Shown piece after piece: positions 28,838 through 33,107 of a stretch of DNA of 64,000 nt (the first letter of the stretch is position 1; each line of letters begins with the position of its first letter). The stretch is from Pseudomonas sp. RSB 5.4 (lineage in GTDB: Bacteria > Pseudomonadota > Gammaproteobacteria > Pseudomonadales > Pseudomonadaceae): assembly GCF_037126175.1 (NCBI RefSeq), contig NZ_CP146986.1:1144501-1208500 (forward strand), in the 5' to 3' direction. The translations under genes and the position numbers were made by a program. The notes beneath the pieces are model-generated. The model was not told where the DNA came from and did not search any database. It saw only the letters and a list, made by a program, of their open reading frames with translations.

Positions 28838-28980
28838 GCGCGGTGAAAAAAGAGAGGGCGACTCCAAAGGGTGCTGTAACACCCAGGGGAGACGCTAGAT
28901 CGCAGATAGAGCCTGCAAGCCAGCCAAGGCCCTCACTGCTCGCGCGAGCGGGACGGAGCCTAGCAGAAAACCAAATGGAC

Positions 28981-29132
28981 TTGCAGATGTTAAAAGAATG
29001 CAGATGCGGAAAATGCAACAGACTTCTCGCCCGCGTGGGTGAGTTTACCGAGCTCCAGATCAAATGTTCCCGATGCGGGACGTTGAATCATGAGAAGGCC
29101 GCGAGCCTCGAGCGATCGCCTGTGAGCGACAT
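28981..29132. repeat. 152-bp com repeat, copy 1 (copy 2 at 30873-31024)
   Basis: From TTGCAGATGTTAAAAGAATG through the com coding region to about GAGCGACAT. Only a handful of differences from copy 2, and outside these limits the sequences are unrelated. Direct orientation, 1.9 kb apart. Confidence 0.9.
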
Positions 29133-29181
29133 GAAAGCGGAATTCTCCGCGAACAATCATTCGACTCAAAAGGTATGCTAA
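28987..29181 (+). CDS. com: Mu Com-like zinc-finger translational regulator, copy 1
   Basis: 64 residues. CRCGKCNRLLARVGEF... KCSRCGTLNH gives the two Cys pairs of the Com family (Mu Com: CKNCNKLL ... CPRC). Mu Com binds mRNA and opens the mom ribosome site. Here the stop (TAA 29179-29181) overlaps the ATG of the bacteriocin gene, so Com control or translational coupling of the bacteriocin is likely. The C-terminal part (MKAEFSANNHSTQKVC) is absent from copy 2. An in-frame ATG at 28975 is an alternative start. Confidence 0.88.
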   Translation: MLKECRCGKCNRLLARVGEFTELQIKCSRCGTLNHEKAASLERSPVSDMKAEFSANNHSTQKVC

Positions 29182-30020
29182 TGGAACTTCCACCAATTAA
29201 TGTTACAGCTCCTGAACCATTTTACCCTGGACTTAATCAAAGTGGCGGCGGTACTTTGCAAAGCCCCGCGGTAGTTATGAACCAAATGCAACTAATTCGG
29301 AATAACTACTACGTCAAAGGGATGTGGCGTGAGGTGATCGTTAAGCTCTGTTCGGAAGCAGAGTATTATATGAATAAGAGTGGCGGGCAGTTCGCAGAAT
29401 GGATGGTCGGAGAGCCATTTCGCCGCGATTTAAAGGTTTTGCCATATGCGGACAATTATATGTGCGTAACTGGTCTGTCTCCTGAGGCGGCATTGTGGTA
29501 TGCATATCGCAACCCTCTGCTTGTCACTCAAGCAAATGCTGTAATGCAATCAAATCAGCTATCCGCCACAGATTTGGGCCCTGTATCTGCTTTGGGCCAC
29601 TTCATCTATGGCGATGGCAATAGCGTTGTGATGGATATCAACAAGCTAGGATTGAAGCCTTCCGTTACGAGCATTCCACTTTTGGACCAGCATCTAGCTT
29701 CTATGCCAATCGGCACGTCTAGTGTCCTGATTGACAAAGTTCCTTATGATACTTTTGCAGATTCGTTTAATACTGGCGTAATTCTTGGGCATATCACCCT
29801 GAAGATTGAAGGTACCGCTACGAAGTCTGAAAGCGGGGCGGTTACTTTCAATGGGGAGGCCCGCGCCTATCATGACAAGTATGACGCAAACCAGGGATCG
29901 TTCAGAAACGCGCTTCCAGAGGCTGCCACTACTATTTTGCGCAAAATCCAAGAGGTGACAAAAGCCAAAGAGTATGAAATTGAAATCAGAGGTTCTCTGC
30001 CAATCAATATTCAGCGGTAA
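29181..30020 (+). CDS. Colicin M-type bacteriocin with altered active site
   Basis: 279 residues, the usual colicin M size (271). From residue 128 it aligns by eye with colicin M as I recall it: ALGHFIYGDGNSVVMDINKL with ALAHYLWGNGAERSVNIANI; LGHITLKIEGTATKSESG with LGNITLKTEGTLTISANG; AYHDKYDANQGSFR with SYDDKYDFNASTHR. Colicin M hydrolyses lipid II in the periplasm with Asp226, Tyr228, Asp229, His235 and Arg236. Here Asp232, Tyr234, Asp235 and Arg242 are kept but the His is Phe241. N-terminal ELPPINVTA may be a TonB box. AT-rich compared with the phage, so it is a foreign cargo. Release would need the phage lysis genes. Confidence 0.88.
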   Translation: MELPPINVTAPEPFYPGLNQSGGGTLQSPAVVMNQMQLIRNNYYVKGMWREVIVKLCSEAEYYMNKSGGQFAEWMVGEPFRRDLKVLPYADNYMCVTGLSPEAALWYAYRNPLLVTQANAVMQSNQLSATDLGPVSALGHFIYGDGNSVVMDINKLGLKPSVTSIPLLDQHLASMPIGTSSVLIDKVPYDTFADSFNTGVILGHITLKIEGTATKSESGAVTFNGEARAYHDKYDANQGSFRNALPEAATTILRKIQEVTKAKEYEIEIRGSLPINIQR

Positions 30021-30235: not shown

Positions 30236-30677
30236 ATGAACTCTTGGAAACGGCTTTTTTTTTCTGCTTGCAATTTCTTTGTCAGCTTTTTTGTTGTTTG
30301 CGTATTCAATTGCTGGTATGCCGGAAAACCCTAATGATTTGACCGATACGGTCGGCGTCCCCGCGGCTTATATGTTTGCGATTTTTCTTATGGTTTTTGG
30401 AGTCTTTTCTTGGGGTGTTTCATTAATAGGATTGCTAATCCATGGCATCGTGAATGATGAACGTGCCATGTTCCGAATTTTTATTTTCTGCATCATGAAT
30501 TTCCCTTTATTCCTAACTTCTGCATTCGGGGTTTTCTCGGTTGCAGTATTTTCATACGACTCAATTATTGGTATCTTGGCTGGTATTTTGTTTTTTTCGA
30601 TAATGGTCTGTCTCTTTTTAATGGTGCTGCCAGCTTCAAAGGATAAGCGGAAGCTGATGGAGCAGGATCGCCTATAG
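30236..30677 (+). pseudogene. Four-helix membrane protein, likely bacteriocin immunity; frameshift in T9 run
   Basis: From ATG 30236 (GGTGGA upstream) the frame reads MNSWKRLFFSA and stops after 32 residues. Removing one T from the T9 run (30255-30263) joins MNSWKRLFF to LLAISLSAFLLFAYSIAGMP and continues to the stop at 30677. The restored protein of about 146 residues has four hydrophobic helices (LFFLLAISLSAFLLFAYSIA; AYMFAIFLMVFGVFSWGVSL; MNFPLFLTSAFGVFSVAVFS; IIGILAGILFFSIMVCLFLM) and a basic tail. Integral four-helix immunity partners are known for Pseudomonas M-type bacteriocins. It may be inactive, slip-decoded, phase-variable, or a sequencing error; a TTG start at 30279 is an alternative. 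Confidence 0.7.
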
Positions 30678-30713: not shown

Positions 30714-30846
30714 CCGGGTGGCTCGAGACTGGACTGCGAGATCGATACAAAGGGGCGTCGACGCTGGGATAATCTTCGACCGACAGTTCGGCAAGAGGAG
30801 TGCACCTATTCAGGGCCTCTGCCAATGCAGGGGCTTTTTGTTTTTC
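30714..30846. repeat. ~133-bp cassette-end repeat, copy 1 (copy 2 at 32215-32347)
   Basis: Shared blocks: GGCTCGAGACTGG / GGCGCGAGACTGG, GAGATCGAT, AGGGGCGTCGAC, GCACCTATTCAGGGCCTCTG, GGGCTTTTTGTTTT. About 78% identical. It follows the immunity gene here and precedes the holins in copy 2, so it marks the right boundary of each com cassette. Confidence 0.8.
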
Positions 30847-30872
30847 GCAAGAAAGCTATTTGCAAAAGGAAT

Positions 30873-31024
30873 TTGCAGATGTTGAAAGAATGCAGATGCG
30901 GAAAATGCAACAGACTTCTCGCCCGCGTGGGTGAGTTTACCGAGCTCCAGATCAAATGTTCCCGATGCGGGACGCTGAATCATGTGAAGGCCGCGAGCCT
31001 CGAGCAATCGCCCATGAGCGCCAT
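30873..31024. repeat. 152-bp com repeat, copy 2
   Basis: Direct repeat of 28981-29132. It contains the second com gene and is preceded by AAAAGGAATTTGCAG. Confidence 0.9.
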
Positions 31025-31037
31025 ACGCCCAATATAG
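30879..31037 (+). CDS. com: Mu Com-like zinc-finger regulator, copy 2
   Basis: 52 residues. Residues 1-47 equal copy 1 except for E/V and R/Q changes; the same four Cys are present (CGKC ... CSRC). It has a better ribosome site (AAGGAA, 7 nt) than copy 1. The C-terminus (SAIRPI) ends 38 bp before the next gene, so it is not overlapped with its cargo. Presumed mRNA-binding activator of the gene at 31076. Confidence 0.85.
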   Translation: MLKECRCGKCNRLLARVGEFTELQIKCSRCGTLNHVKAASLEQSPMSAIRPI

Positions 31038-31075
31038 AGGCCTGAACTTAAATCAGCTCAGTAACGGAGTTTAAA

Positions 31076-32038
31076 ATGGAAAACGCAAACTCAGCGTCTC
31101 AAACCTTGCAAGATCTTTGGACTCAAGTACAACCGGTGGATAACACCGGCATGCTTAGGCGCGTGGTTTTTGCGCAAGGCAAGTTTTATGCGGTTGGTGG
31201 CAACGGTCTTACCACAACCACTCAGGTTGTCAGCGGAGGCGCAACTGGTACAGCGTGGACCAAGCTTAAGGGCGCCCTCACCTCTGATAGCGGAAAGGTC
31301 CTCAACGAGCTGTACTGGAACGGTATTGGGTCATCGCTTCAAGCCCTTTCTCAATCCGGCAATCTGTTCTTCGGCAGCGCAGACCACCCTGAAAGGGTTT
31401 GGACAGACCTTACGGCAACTGTTCGCGCGTCCGCAGACTTGCAAGGCATTGTGTTTTATCAGCCAATTTACGGCGAGAACTACACCTGGATACTGGTTGG
31501 GTCTAACGGTAAAGTCTTTTCCCGTTATGGCGATTGGTCAGGCCAGGTGGAGCGCACTACGACCTTCACCTCTAGCGAGACTGTGCACTGCGTCAACGTC
31601 ATTGGCAGTTTTGTGTTGATTGCGGGATCGAATGGGAAGCTGCTTAGCGCTGTGAAGATGGCGACGGATAATCCGCAAACATTCACGACCAGAACCAGCA
31701 CCTTCGGCTATAGCACCATCCTTTCCATGAAGCTTTGCAACGGGAAAATGTTTATCGTTGGTGCGGATGGCAAGATGGCATATTCATCCGATGGGCTTAG
31801 CTGGACTGCTGTTGAAGATACCAGTTTCGGTGGAACCATCATCCGCGACATTGCTTACGGTAATGGCAAGTATGTAGCTGTCGGCGACGGCGGCAAGACA
31901 GCCGTTTCCGAGGATGGGATCGGCTGGGTTCAGCAAGCCAACACTTTCGCAGGAACCGATATCCGGAGCGTCGCCTACGGCAACGGCAATTTTATAGCTG
32001 TTGGTGCAGGCGGCAAGATTGCTTACTGGACTCCATGA
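31076..32038 (+). CDS. Beta-propeller-like repeat protein
   Basis: 320 residues made of about six blades: GKFYAVGGNGLTTTT, GSSLQALSQSGNLFFGSADH, NYTWILVGSNGKVFSRYGDW, GSFVLIAGSNGKLLSAVKMA, CNGKMFIVGADGKMAYSSDG, GNGKYVAVGDGGKTAVSEDG and GNGNFIAVGAGGKIAYWTP. The GxFxAVGxxGKxxxSxDG blade motif is common in phage and secreted propellers. No signal peptide, no catalytic motif. CAGTAACGGAGTTTAAA precedes ATG 31076. Being cargo of the second com cassette it could be a tail-associated or released binding protein. Confidence 0.7.
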   Translation: MENANSASQTLQDLWTQVQPVDNTGMLRRVVFAQGKFYAVGGNGLTTTTQVVSGGATGTAWTKLKGALTSDSGKVLNELYWNGIGSSLQALSQSGNLFFGSADHPERVWTDLTATVRASADLQGIVFYQPIYGENYTWILVGSNGKVFSRYGDWSGQVERTTTFTSSETVHCVNVIGSFVLIAGSNGKLLSAVKMATDNPQTFTTRTSTFGYSTILSMKLCNGKMFIVGADGKMAYSSDGLSWTAVEDTSFGGTIIRDIAYGNGKYVAVGDGGKTAVSEDGIGWVQQANTFAGTDIRSVAYGNGNFIAVGAGGKIAYWTP

Positions 32039-32088: not shown

Positions 32089-32214
32089 ATTTCTGATTCA
32101 GGCTCGTCACAGCCAGGGTGGCCCTTCGGGGGATGCCTGGACGTCGATAGCCGGATAGTGCGACGTACGGAATCAACACCGGCAGCCCGCGCACCCTGAC
32201 CTCAAACTTGCTTT

Positions 32215-32347
32215 CGGGGTGGCGCGAGACTGGATCATCGAGATCGATGCATAGGGGCGTCGACGTTGAGAGAGTCTTTGGCGGACAGCTCGGAAAGACG
32301 AGCGCACCTATTCAGGGCCTCTGCATTCGCAAGGGCTTTTTGTTTTC
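32215..32347. repeat. ~133-bp cassette-end repeat, copy 2
   Basis: Direct repeat of 30714-30846, ending 75 bp before the holin gene. The remaining 32090-32214 sequence shows no gene. Confidence 0.8.
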
Positions 32348-32424
32348 GGCTCCCCACCCCCATAGCTCTGAGCTGGGAGTGCAGCGGGGCCGACCTATTC
32401 ACATGCACCCACGGAGTCGAGCGC

Positions 32425-32763
32425 ATGGATTCTTTACACCGCCTGCTCGAGCTCATCGACAGGTTCGGATTGCTGATCGCGGGATTGGTCGGCGCCGTTG
32501 TCGCCAGTTGGTGGCATAAGGACGATCTAACGGATTGGCGTGCTTGGATTGTCTTTCTGATTACGGGAGTCGCCTGCTCGATTTATTTGACGAGCATGGT
32601 CAGCGCCTACCTGGGCGTAACAGAGCCGAAGATCGTTGCAGGTATCGGCTTTTTGCTTGGGGCATTCGGTGGGTCGCTCCTTGCAGCCATCAACCGTGCA
32701 ATCAAGTCCGCTGACCTCTGGGCGCTCATTCGCCAGCGGTTCGGGGGAGGCAATCCACCATGA
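32425..32763 (+). CDS. Putative holin
   Basis: 112 residues with three hydrophobic helices (FGLLIAGLVGAVVASWW, AWIVFLITGVACSIYLTSMV, IVAGIGFLLGAFGGSLLAAI) and a basic tail (IRQRFGGGNPP). Size, helix number and position at the start of the late region fit a class I holin that would perforate the inner membrane for the endolysin encoded at 59396. Coupled (ATGA) to the next membrane gene. Confidence 0.75.
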   Translation: MDSLHRLLELIDRFGLLIAGLVGAVVASWWHKDDLTDWRAWIVFLITGVACSIYLTSMVSAYLGVTEPKIVAGIGFLLGAFGGSLLAAINRAIKSADLWALIRQRFGGGNPP

Positions 32764-33107
32764 ATTTTGAACTGATCAACTCTATTGCCTGCGGCTTGAT
32801 TGCCTTGTGGGCGACCTGGTGTGTTCTGAGCGGTCGGGTGCGTGACGGTGTAATTGGCAAGCTGATCTATTCGGCGATTGCCATCAGCGGTTTTGTGGTG
32901 ATGAGCCGGGAGCAGACCATCTTCATGATGGGGCCGACCACTGCCGGTATAACCCTGCACGTCTCGCTGGCGCTGGCCGGCATGCGCCACATCTTCATGG
33001 TCATCTGGTGGCAGCGGGTGAAGGCCTGGCTCTGCCGGACGCTGAACTGCGAGCACTGCCTGCGCTGCGAAGAGGCGCCGGGCGGGATCGACCGGCGCGG
33101 CAAATAA
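32760..33107 (+). CDS. Second holin-like membrane protein
   Basis: 115 residues, three hydrophobic segments (INSIACGLIALWATWCVL, LIYSAIAISGFVVMS, GITLHVSLALAGMRHIFMVI), then a Cys-rich basic tail (CRTLNCEHCLRCEEAPGG). Pairs with the holin gene and may be an antiholin or second holin. Function inferred from position. Confidence 0.65.
   Translation: MNFELINSIACGLIALWATWCVLSGRVRDGVIGKLIYSAIAISGFVVMSREQTIFMMGPTTAGITLHVSLALAGMRHIFMVIWWQRVKAWLCRTLNCEHCLRCEEAPGGIDRRGK

Follow-up and report, generated by a model that had tools for sequence, protein, structure and literature searches.

Can a bacteriocin of the colicin M type remain a weapon when the histidine needed in colicin M for lipid II hydrolysis is replaced by phenylalanine? 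The question is raised by a toxin gene in a prophage of Pseudomonas sp. RSB 5.4, within a stretch of 64,000 nucleotides (contig NZ_CP146986.1, positions 1,144,501 to 1,208,500) that we call the window. An earlier sequence-only reading of this DNA had pointed out the substitution and left the activity of the toxin undecided. Taken as a whole, the explanation we consider probable is that the gene encodes a prophage colicin M-type bacteriocin, accompanied by a likely PmiA immunity partner, which still kills via lipid II and whose translation is switched by the product of the adjoining com gene. Papers are cited by PMC number, and statements resting on them are limited to the parts of each source that were accessible.

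Phenylalanine at the histidine position and its clade

The 279-aa protein scores 148.3 bits with the Pfam family Colicin_M (PF14859; cut-off 27, E 3.1e-43), its predicted structure matches the colicin M fold, and phmmer aligns its DKYDANQGSFR with DKYDFNASTHR of colicin M and also with the corresponding parts of PaeM and syringacin M, which bears out the toxin type proposed from the sequence alone. In this alignment Phe241 (codon TTC, 29901–29903) occupies the position of colicin M His235, so that the replacement at the heart of the sequence-only reading is confirmed, and Ala236 occupies that of Phe230. Asp, Tyr, Asp and Arg of the canonical DxYD(x5)HR motif are all present (D232, Y234, D235 and R242).

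Searching with the single sequence yielded 11 relatives, and searching with a profile 65. An alignment of 114 rows was made from proteins of at least 220 aa (shorter ones were left out), genomes and viral contigs, together with colicin M and PaeM. Its main aromatic group comprises 53 rows, the window and some near-copies included, in which the His235 position holds Phe in 35, Trp in 17 and Tyr in one; the other residues essential in colicin M are retained, with D226, D229 and R236 in 53 of 53 rows, and Tyr at the Y228 position in 51 and Phe in two. Phenylalanine does not, then, single out one toxin. Nor is the alanine after D-Y-D odd, since it stands in 20 of the 38 His-type rows, among them PflM (L032), and a further six have Gly there. 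Seven aromatic rows lie outside the 53, namely L052–L055, P0064 and the PmnH-type L061 and L062, and the first five of these retain the D/Y/D/R residues.

A quick tree with long branches, calculated after removal of the motif columns for 92 of the 114 rows (the 22 omitted being fragments, near-copies and some ColM-beta rows), needs at least four changes between His and an aromatic residue, or 12 when Phe, Trp and Tyr are distinguished. Judged from these alignments, the aromatic residue is a trait of a natural clade and not private to the window protein. Indeed, Phe at the His position has been termed 'frequently present' in colicin M-like proteins of Pseudomonas, GM21 and P. tolaasii 6264 being examples (PMC5358913). 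A class-wide survey found PF14859 only in the window's own genome (1 of 369), and no second colicin M gene was found in that genome. L052–L055 form an apparently independent colicin M lineage on viral contigs with Phe at the His position; in the quick tree this separate lineage (L052, L054) clusters with colicin M, a Cmi-like gene lies on the opposite strand in all four loci, and L054 had no DNA match among E. coli genomes.

Two other accounts of the substitution were considered and rejected. A sequencing oddity at residue 241 is ruled out, as relatives at 68–92% identity have the same residue, with synonymous variation around it. A shifted catalytic His was not found: the only mostly-His column of the 53 aromatic rows, residue 140, is also His in 36 of the 37 His-type rows with a letter there. 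Neither outcome named in the sequence-only reading as refuting it came about, since the colicin M fold is matched and no His has shifted into the site; the homologue search proposed there gave a set of relatives sharing the aromatic residue. Because Phe241 replaces the catalytic His and no shifted His was found, we do not file the window protein as a canonical DxYD(x5)HR lipid II hydrolase.

Hydrolysis, blocking or loss of function

The sequence-only reading had offered three possibilities, a dead toxin, another mechanism or another catalytic base. The first is disfavoured by selection, the retained D/Y/D/R residues and the linked immunity genes. Nei–Gojobori ratios of nonsynonymous to synonymous change (dN/dS) in the catalytic half are 0.028 for the window and its 92% relative, 0.023–0.128 in the eight of nine aromatic pairs that are not saturated, and 0.062–0.193 in the three of seven His-type pairs that are not saturated, the pairs in both sets sharing members.

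The membrane-protein open reading frame (ORF) on the same strand, 259 bases downstream of the toxin gene, is likely, by position and sequence, to be its PmiA immunity partner. By a simple hydropathy count, 13 of 13 distinct Pseudomonas aromatic loci have an ORF of 132–164 aa with four or five hydrophobic stretches no more than 300 bases downstream, and of the 62 large ORFs of the window the only one to pass the same test is necessarily this toxin. All 13 loci thus show the arrangement known for PmiA, a same-strand gene just downstream encoding about 137 aa with four helices, and seven of them carry the strict motif D[T/S]xGxP of PmiA immunity proteins (PMC5277000), which reads DTVGVP in the window. 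PmiA would protect the carrier. The window's immunity ORF has no in-frame ATG (30236–30290): an ATG at 30236 is out of frame, the open frame first meets a TTG at 30279, and in L001, its nearest relative, the ORF is continuous from an ATG at the corresponding position. This 5' disturbance is either genuine damage to the gene or the product of a misassembled base run. No other pmiA-like gene was found in the genome at E 0.001 with one PmiA query, but PmiAs diverge widely and a distant one could escape such a search.

Catalytic-half dN/dS values of 0.02–0.13, the invariance of Asp and Arg across 53 rows, the spread of the aromatic state over a deep clade and the membrane gene downstream in 13 of 13 loci are difficult to reconcile with the view that loss of His inactivated the protein and left a relic, or a gene that persists only for its immunity partner. 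We regard that view as very unlikely and the weakest of the three, even though the H235A form of colicin M has lost killing and all but 1.4% of its activity (PMC8469651, Table 1), the immunity ORF of the window is disturbed at its 5' end, and PmnH, which also has Phe, kills through its pore domain (PMC8469651, PMC5358913). In the PmnH-type L061, which has a pore-forming domain, the active-site block reads HTYDSMPAGFK, and in L030, a 677-aa open frame, a ColM domain that has lost the block is followed by Pyocin_S and a further C-terminal part; as far as examined, therefore, proteins whose sole weapon is the ColM part have retained the block. An odd member, L041, is a 499-aa ORF with three Colicin_M stretches and has kept the block.

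The main rival is a toxin that does not cut: using the metal and Arg site that it has kept, the domain would attach to lipid II or to a synthase and block peptidoglycan synthesis. Phe and Trp, found in 52 of the 53 rows, are incapable of acid–base chemistry, immunity would still be needed, and Pectocin M1 D222A, despite lacking hydrolysis, caused lysis of E. coli and a halt in peptidoglycan synthesis when produced in the periplasm (PMC5187517). However, the colicin M mutant at the matching Asp was not toxic in the periplasm (PMC5187517), and the presence of Asp, Asp and Arg in 53 of 53 rows suits catalysis at least equally well. Blocking without cutting seems to us rather improbable, if clearly less so than a dead toxin.

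Of the three, hydrolysis without His appears likeliest on present sequence comparisons. In the periplasm of a related cell, the metal-binding Asp232 together with Tyr234, Asp235 and Arg242 would cut lipid II, with water or an Asp taking the part of the histidine and the aromatic ring packing against lipid or a loop. The exact mechanism of the colicin M toxin fold is still termed unknown (PMC8469651); general context on release, immunity and His–Arg helix mobility is given elsewhere (PMC5821083, PMC11452297). The aromatic clade is a natural test of the role of His235, and should its members cut lipid II, the catalytic models now in use will have to be revised.

The com gene and its leader RNA

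Immediately upstream of the toxin gene lies com, which encodes a Com-like zinc ribbon and whose stop codon TAA shares one base with the ATG of the toxin gene (gap −1). The last part of com overlaps an 89-base leader (the Com-box leader; Table 1). The predicted fold of the window RNA (z −1.99) has hairpin 1, followed by a long helix over the ribosome-binding site and around an inner hairpin; the predicted folds of eight relatives have z values from −0.9 to −3.6. Two features of the phage Mu com–mom system are present, the zinc ribbon and, in predicted structures, a hairpin loop next to an inhibiting helix in the start region; for Mu-type Com, the motif obtained by selection was CC(N)2-3GAG within a hairpin loop (PMC6483171).

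A Com hit lies near the toxin start in 9 of the 13 aromatic Pseudomonas loci (decayed in L033 and L050) and in 4 of 25 His-type rows, colicin M and PaeM counted. One of these four is DVM-2008, whose toxin PflM is active (PMC5277000) and whose second com is unannotated and deviates from the Cys pattern. CC(N)3GAG occurs in 12 of 13 junctions, being absent from L021. Among close Com loci on viral contigs, 77 of 79 have a CC(N)2-3GAG hairpin of at least four pairs, compared with 67 of 1227 stretches taken at random. These loci are related to one another and their hairpins lie in coding DNA; conservation in com extends to many codons outside the hairpin.

A covariance model (R1) built from eight toxin leaders gave 73 matches, the eight training sequences included, in 56 of 63 sources. 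These came from 43 of the 48 Com loci (of the 79) that were searched, among others, and there was no match in five com–propeller loci, phage B3 or L036. Among 64 distinct rows of this first set, 91.6% of cells pair, and double changes that keep pairing occur in 17 of 27 pairs (hairpin 1, 4 of 4; the two parts of the long helix, 5 of 14 and 4 of 4; inner hairpin, 4 of 5), compared with 3.7 in shuffled alignments, 0 of 500 being as high, and 2–5 in slid versions. A second set was drawn from 149 genomes of the genus, with matches in 16 and the window's own leader (L163) omitted; its 22 distinct rows show double changes in 12 of 27 pairs (shuffles 4.5, slid versions 2–7), and it partly overlaps the first, since L176 and L023 come from one genome stretch and the gene of L178 looks identical to that of L153. 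From an unfitted alignment of 20 leaders, RNAalifold returned hairpin 1, the inner hairpin and an alternative hairpin, with double changes in 9 of 13 pairs. The alternative hairpin and the long helix exclude one another and, as modelled, would be the two competing states that a switch would need.

Downstream genes were typed for 64 of the 73 matches, with Pfam run on representatives and nine near-copies and cut or weak partial matches omitted. They fall into eight families: 24 belong to one short unknown family, 17 are B-lectin kin, 13 are of the colicin M type, four are DUF642 kin, three belong to one further family and three are singles. Their start codons deviate from the expected position by up to 9 bases upstream and 11 downstream. 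When com is counted as intact only if it shows a strict in-frame Cys pattern, 52 of the 73 leaders have an intact copy upstream; of the other 21, some have a decayed or cut com and others belong to the second gene within a locus. In L100, L116, L118, L125, L126 and L154, cargo genes stand in tandem, each with its own leader, the later leader lacking an intact com in front, and the genus set also has tandem leaders. Since leaders occur without an intact com upstream, com coding alone cannot explain hairpin 1, and Com is likely, to judge from these arrangements, to act in trans. A leader placed before unrelated phage cargo genes likely represents a Com regulon. On induction, the late transcript would run through com and the toxin gene with the long helix covering the ribosome site; Com would then bind the CC(N)2-3GAG hairpin and open the helix, as Mu Com does for mom.

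Leaders that end at the start codons of unrelated genes, the 21 of 73 with no intact in-frame com ahead of them (some at the second gene of a locus), and double changes preserving the helices in two partly overlapping sets all sit poorly with a simpler account, in which the leader is only a mobile promoter, the element PAPE of P. syringae, copied along with com, and the RNA fold has no regulatory role. That account has in its favour that PAPE was described as a promoter element and that a com stop mutation had no effect on lscB (PMC3899960); we consider it unlikely.

Our fuller proposal, that Pseudomonas prophages have a Com regulon (Com acting in trans on a modular, covarying 89-base switch at the start of unrelated cargo genes, among them colicin M-type and lectin-like bacteriocins and DUF642 proteins, so that different weapons are made at the same time on induction) and that the window's clade hydrolyses lipid II without His, is put forward tentatively, as possible and by no means secure. 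Several observations weigh against the explanation that we favour at the outset. As the H235A data indicate, Phe may abolish hydrolysis; the accessible text of the literature holds no aromatic-type single-domain protein with an assay; no strain sensitive to the ColM part of PmnH by itself was identified (PMC5358913); and the window's immunity ORF is disturbed, as noted above. On the RNA side, the best fold of L001 differs and has no equivalent of the window's long helix, both covariation alignments (A5 and A7) were fitted to the model, RNAalifold did not recover the long helix from the unfitted alignment, and the eight toxin leaders alone, which are too similar, show no covariation. Four of the 13 aromatic loci (L013, L015, L016 and L036) have no Com hit near the toxin, so that not every member of the clade requires the leader, and the P. 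syringae com stop mutation left lscB expression unaltered (PMC3899960). The leader RNA structure has no family in Rfam and no description in the accessible text of the literature searched, mostly non-subscription journals and including PMC3973379.

Prophage setting and comparison with known systems

The cassette is surrounded by phage genes, encoding NinG, a phrog_3373 protein, two holins, terminase and portal, and six relatives of the main aromatic group (L045–L050) are carried on IMG/VR viral contigs, in agreement with the prophage origin first proposed. NinG kin lie upstream in L045–L049, and holin kin follow the pmiA-like gene in L033/L046, L047 and L014. For L034, L035, L036 and L050, the PmiA-like protein was the only match found to the window's phage proteins, and this test does not show a prophage setting for them; L050 is nonetheless an IMG/VR contig. 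The toxin would leave the cell with phage lysis through the nearby holins. Contrary to the sequence-only reading, such a location is not unusual, for pseuM–pmiA pairs have been described in prophages and tailocin clusters (PMC5277000) and the setting is also known for Q8r1-96 (PMC2647930). Of that reading, the toxin type, the prophage and the Phe have stood, and the uniqueness and the unusual place have not.

Table 1. Features of the toxin cassette and its surroundings (window coordinates)
Feature	Position	Strand	Basis
com, Mu Com-like zinc-ribbon ORF	28975..29181	+	Zn_ribbon_Com 66.6 bits vs 22.9; start read from sequence
RNA leader (Com-box leader), 89 bases, ends at toxin start codon	29095..29183	+	covariance model 103.4 bits; one of 8 training sequences
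Hairpin 1, AGGC-CGCGA-GCCT with CC(N)2GAG, predicted Com site	29096..29108	+	fold, covariation, unfitted alignment
Alternative hairpin, TCGC-CTGTGA-GCGA with CC(N)3GAG, excludes long helix	29116..29129	+	junction scan, unfitted alignment
Long helix, 5' strand, pairs with ribosome-binding site	29116..29134	+	fold, covariation
Inner hairpin, GCGGA-ATTC-TCCGC	29137..29150	+	fold, covariation, unfitted alignment
Long helix, 3' strand, with Shine–Dalgarno-like AGG(T) at 29171–29174	29157..29176	+	fold, covariation
Colicin M-type bacteriocin, 279 aa + stop	29181..30020	+	ORF translation, Pfam, phmmer, predicted fold
Active-site block DKYDANQGSFR, residues 232–242	29874..29906	+	translation and alignment
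PmiA-like immunity membrane protein (likely), 132 aa from TTG, motif DTVGVP	30279..30677	+	frame open from ~30240
Two holin genes, prophage lysis region	32407..33107	+	phrog_2359 and phrog_2508

Further downstream (30825–32038), a second copy of com (160 bases, 94% identical to the first) precedes a DUF6242 propeller-like gene at 31076–32038. The com–propeller pair is frequent on viral contigs, and that of the window has no match to R1 at E 0.01. A direct repeat of 108 bases (30737–30844 and 32239–32346, 83% identical) flanks this cassette and could mark cassette exchange. A Proteo-phage-1 RNA (RF03044) lies at 32107–32187 (85.5 bits, gathering score 42).

Among known toxins, the PseuM group of PF14859 (PaeM, syringacin M, PflM) shares with the window protein its fold, length and D-x-Y-D...R block, the prophage or tailocin setting and the downstream same-strand membrane immunity gene, but has the His of DxYD(x5)HR where the window protein has Phe and hydrolysis is only predicted. 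The Phe-type PseuM proteins of GM21 (L035, 43% identical to the window protein) and P. tolaasii 6264 have the same residue state (PMC5358913). Burkhocins BurM1 and BurM2 and the ColM-beta group kill without the corresponding His and keep Asp and Arg, and in the burkhocins the matching Asp is required for killing (PMC4661593); a review states instead that burkhocins carry the full motif (PMC8469651). ColM-beta rows differ from the window in that the His is absent by a gap, the immunity types are others and the sequences are distant. PmnH, a ColM domain with a pore domain, carries Phe in place of the His and falls within the aromatic clade (the placement of PmnH/L030 rests on an SH-aLRT of 84), yet its first Asp and its Arg are also replaced and it has a second toxin domain.

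For the leader, PAPE resembles the window in that com stands directly before levansucrase and glycosyl hydrolase genes, with a less complete match at the DC3000 bacteriocin gene PSPTO_0572 (PMC3899960). The likeness is drawn from its description, and PAPE differs in being described as a conserved promoter of ~450 bp, the accessible text giving no leader RNA structure (PMC3899960). In phage B3, com overlaps a Dam methylase gene. In phage Mu, as in the window, com lies just upstream of the cargo gene, with a CC(N)2-3GAG hairpin and adjacent structure in the start region, but the cargo in the window is a bacteriocin, and the leader stands also before other genes and without an intact neighbouring com. 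If the proposed role of the leader is true, the Com/mom switch of Mu, which is known from a single DNA-modification gene, would extend to RNA control shared by bacteriocins that phages carry, and the leader would serve as a simple sequence handle to find such cargo genes.
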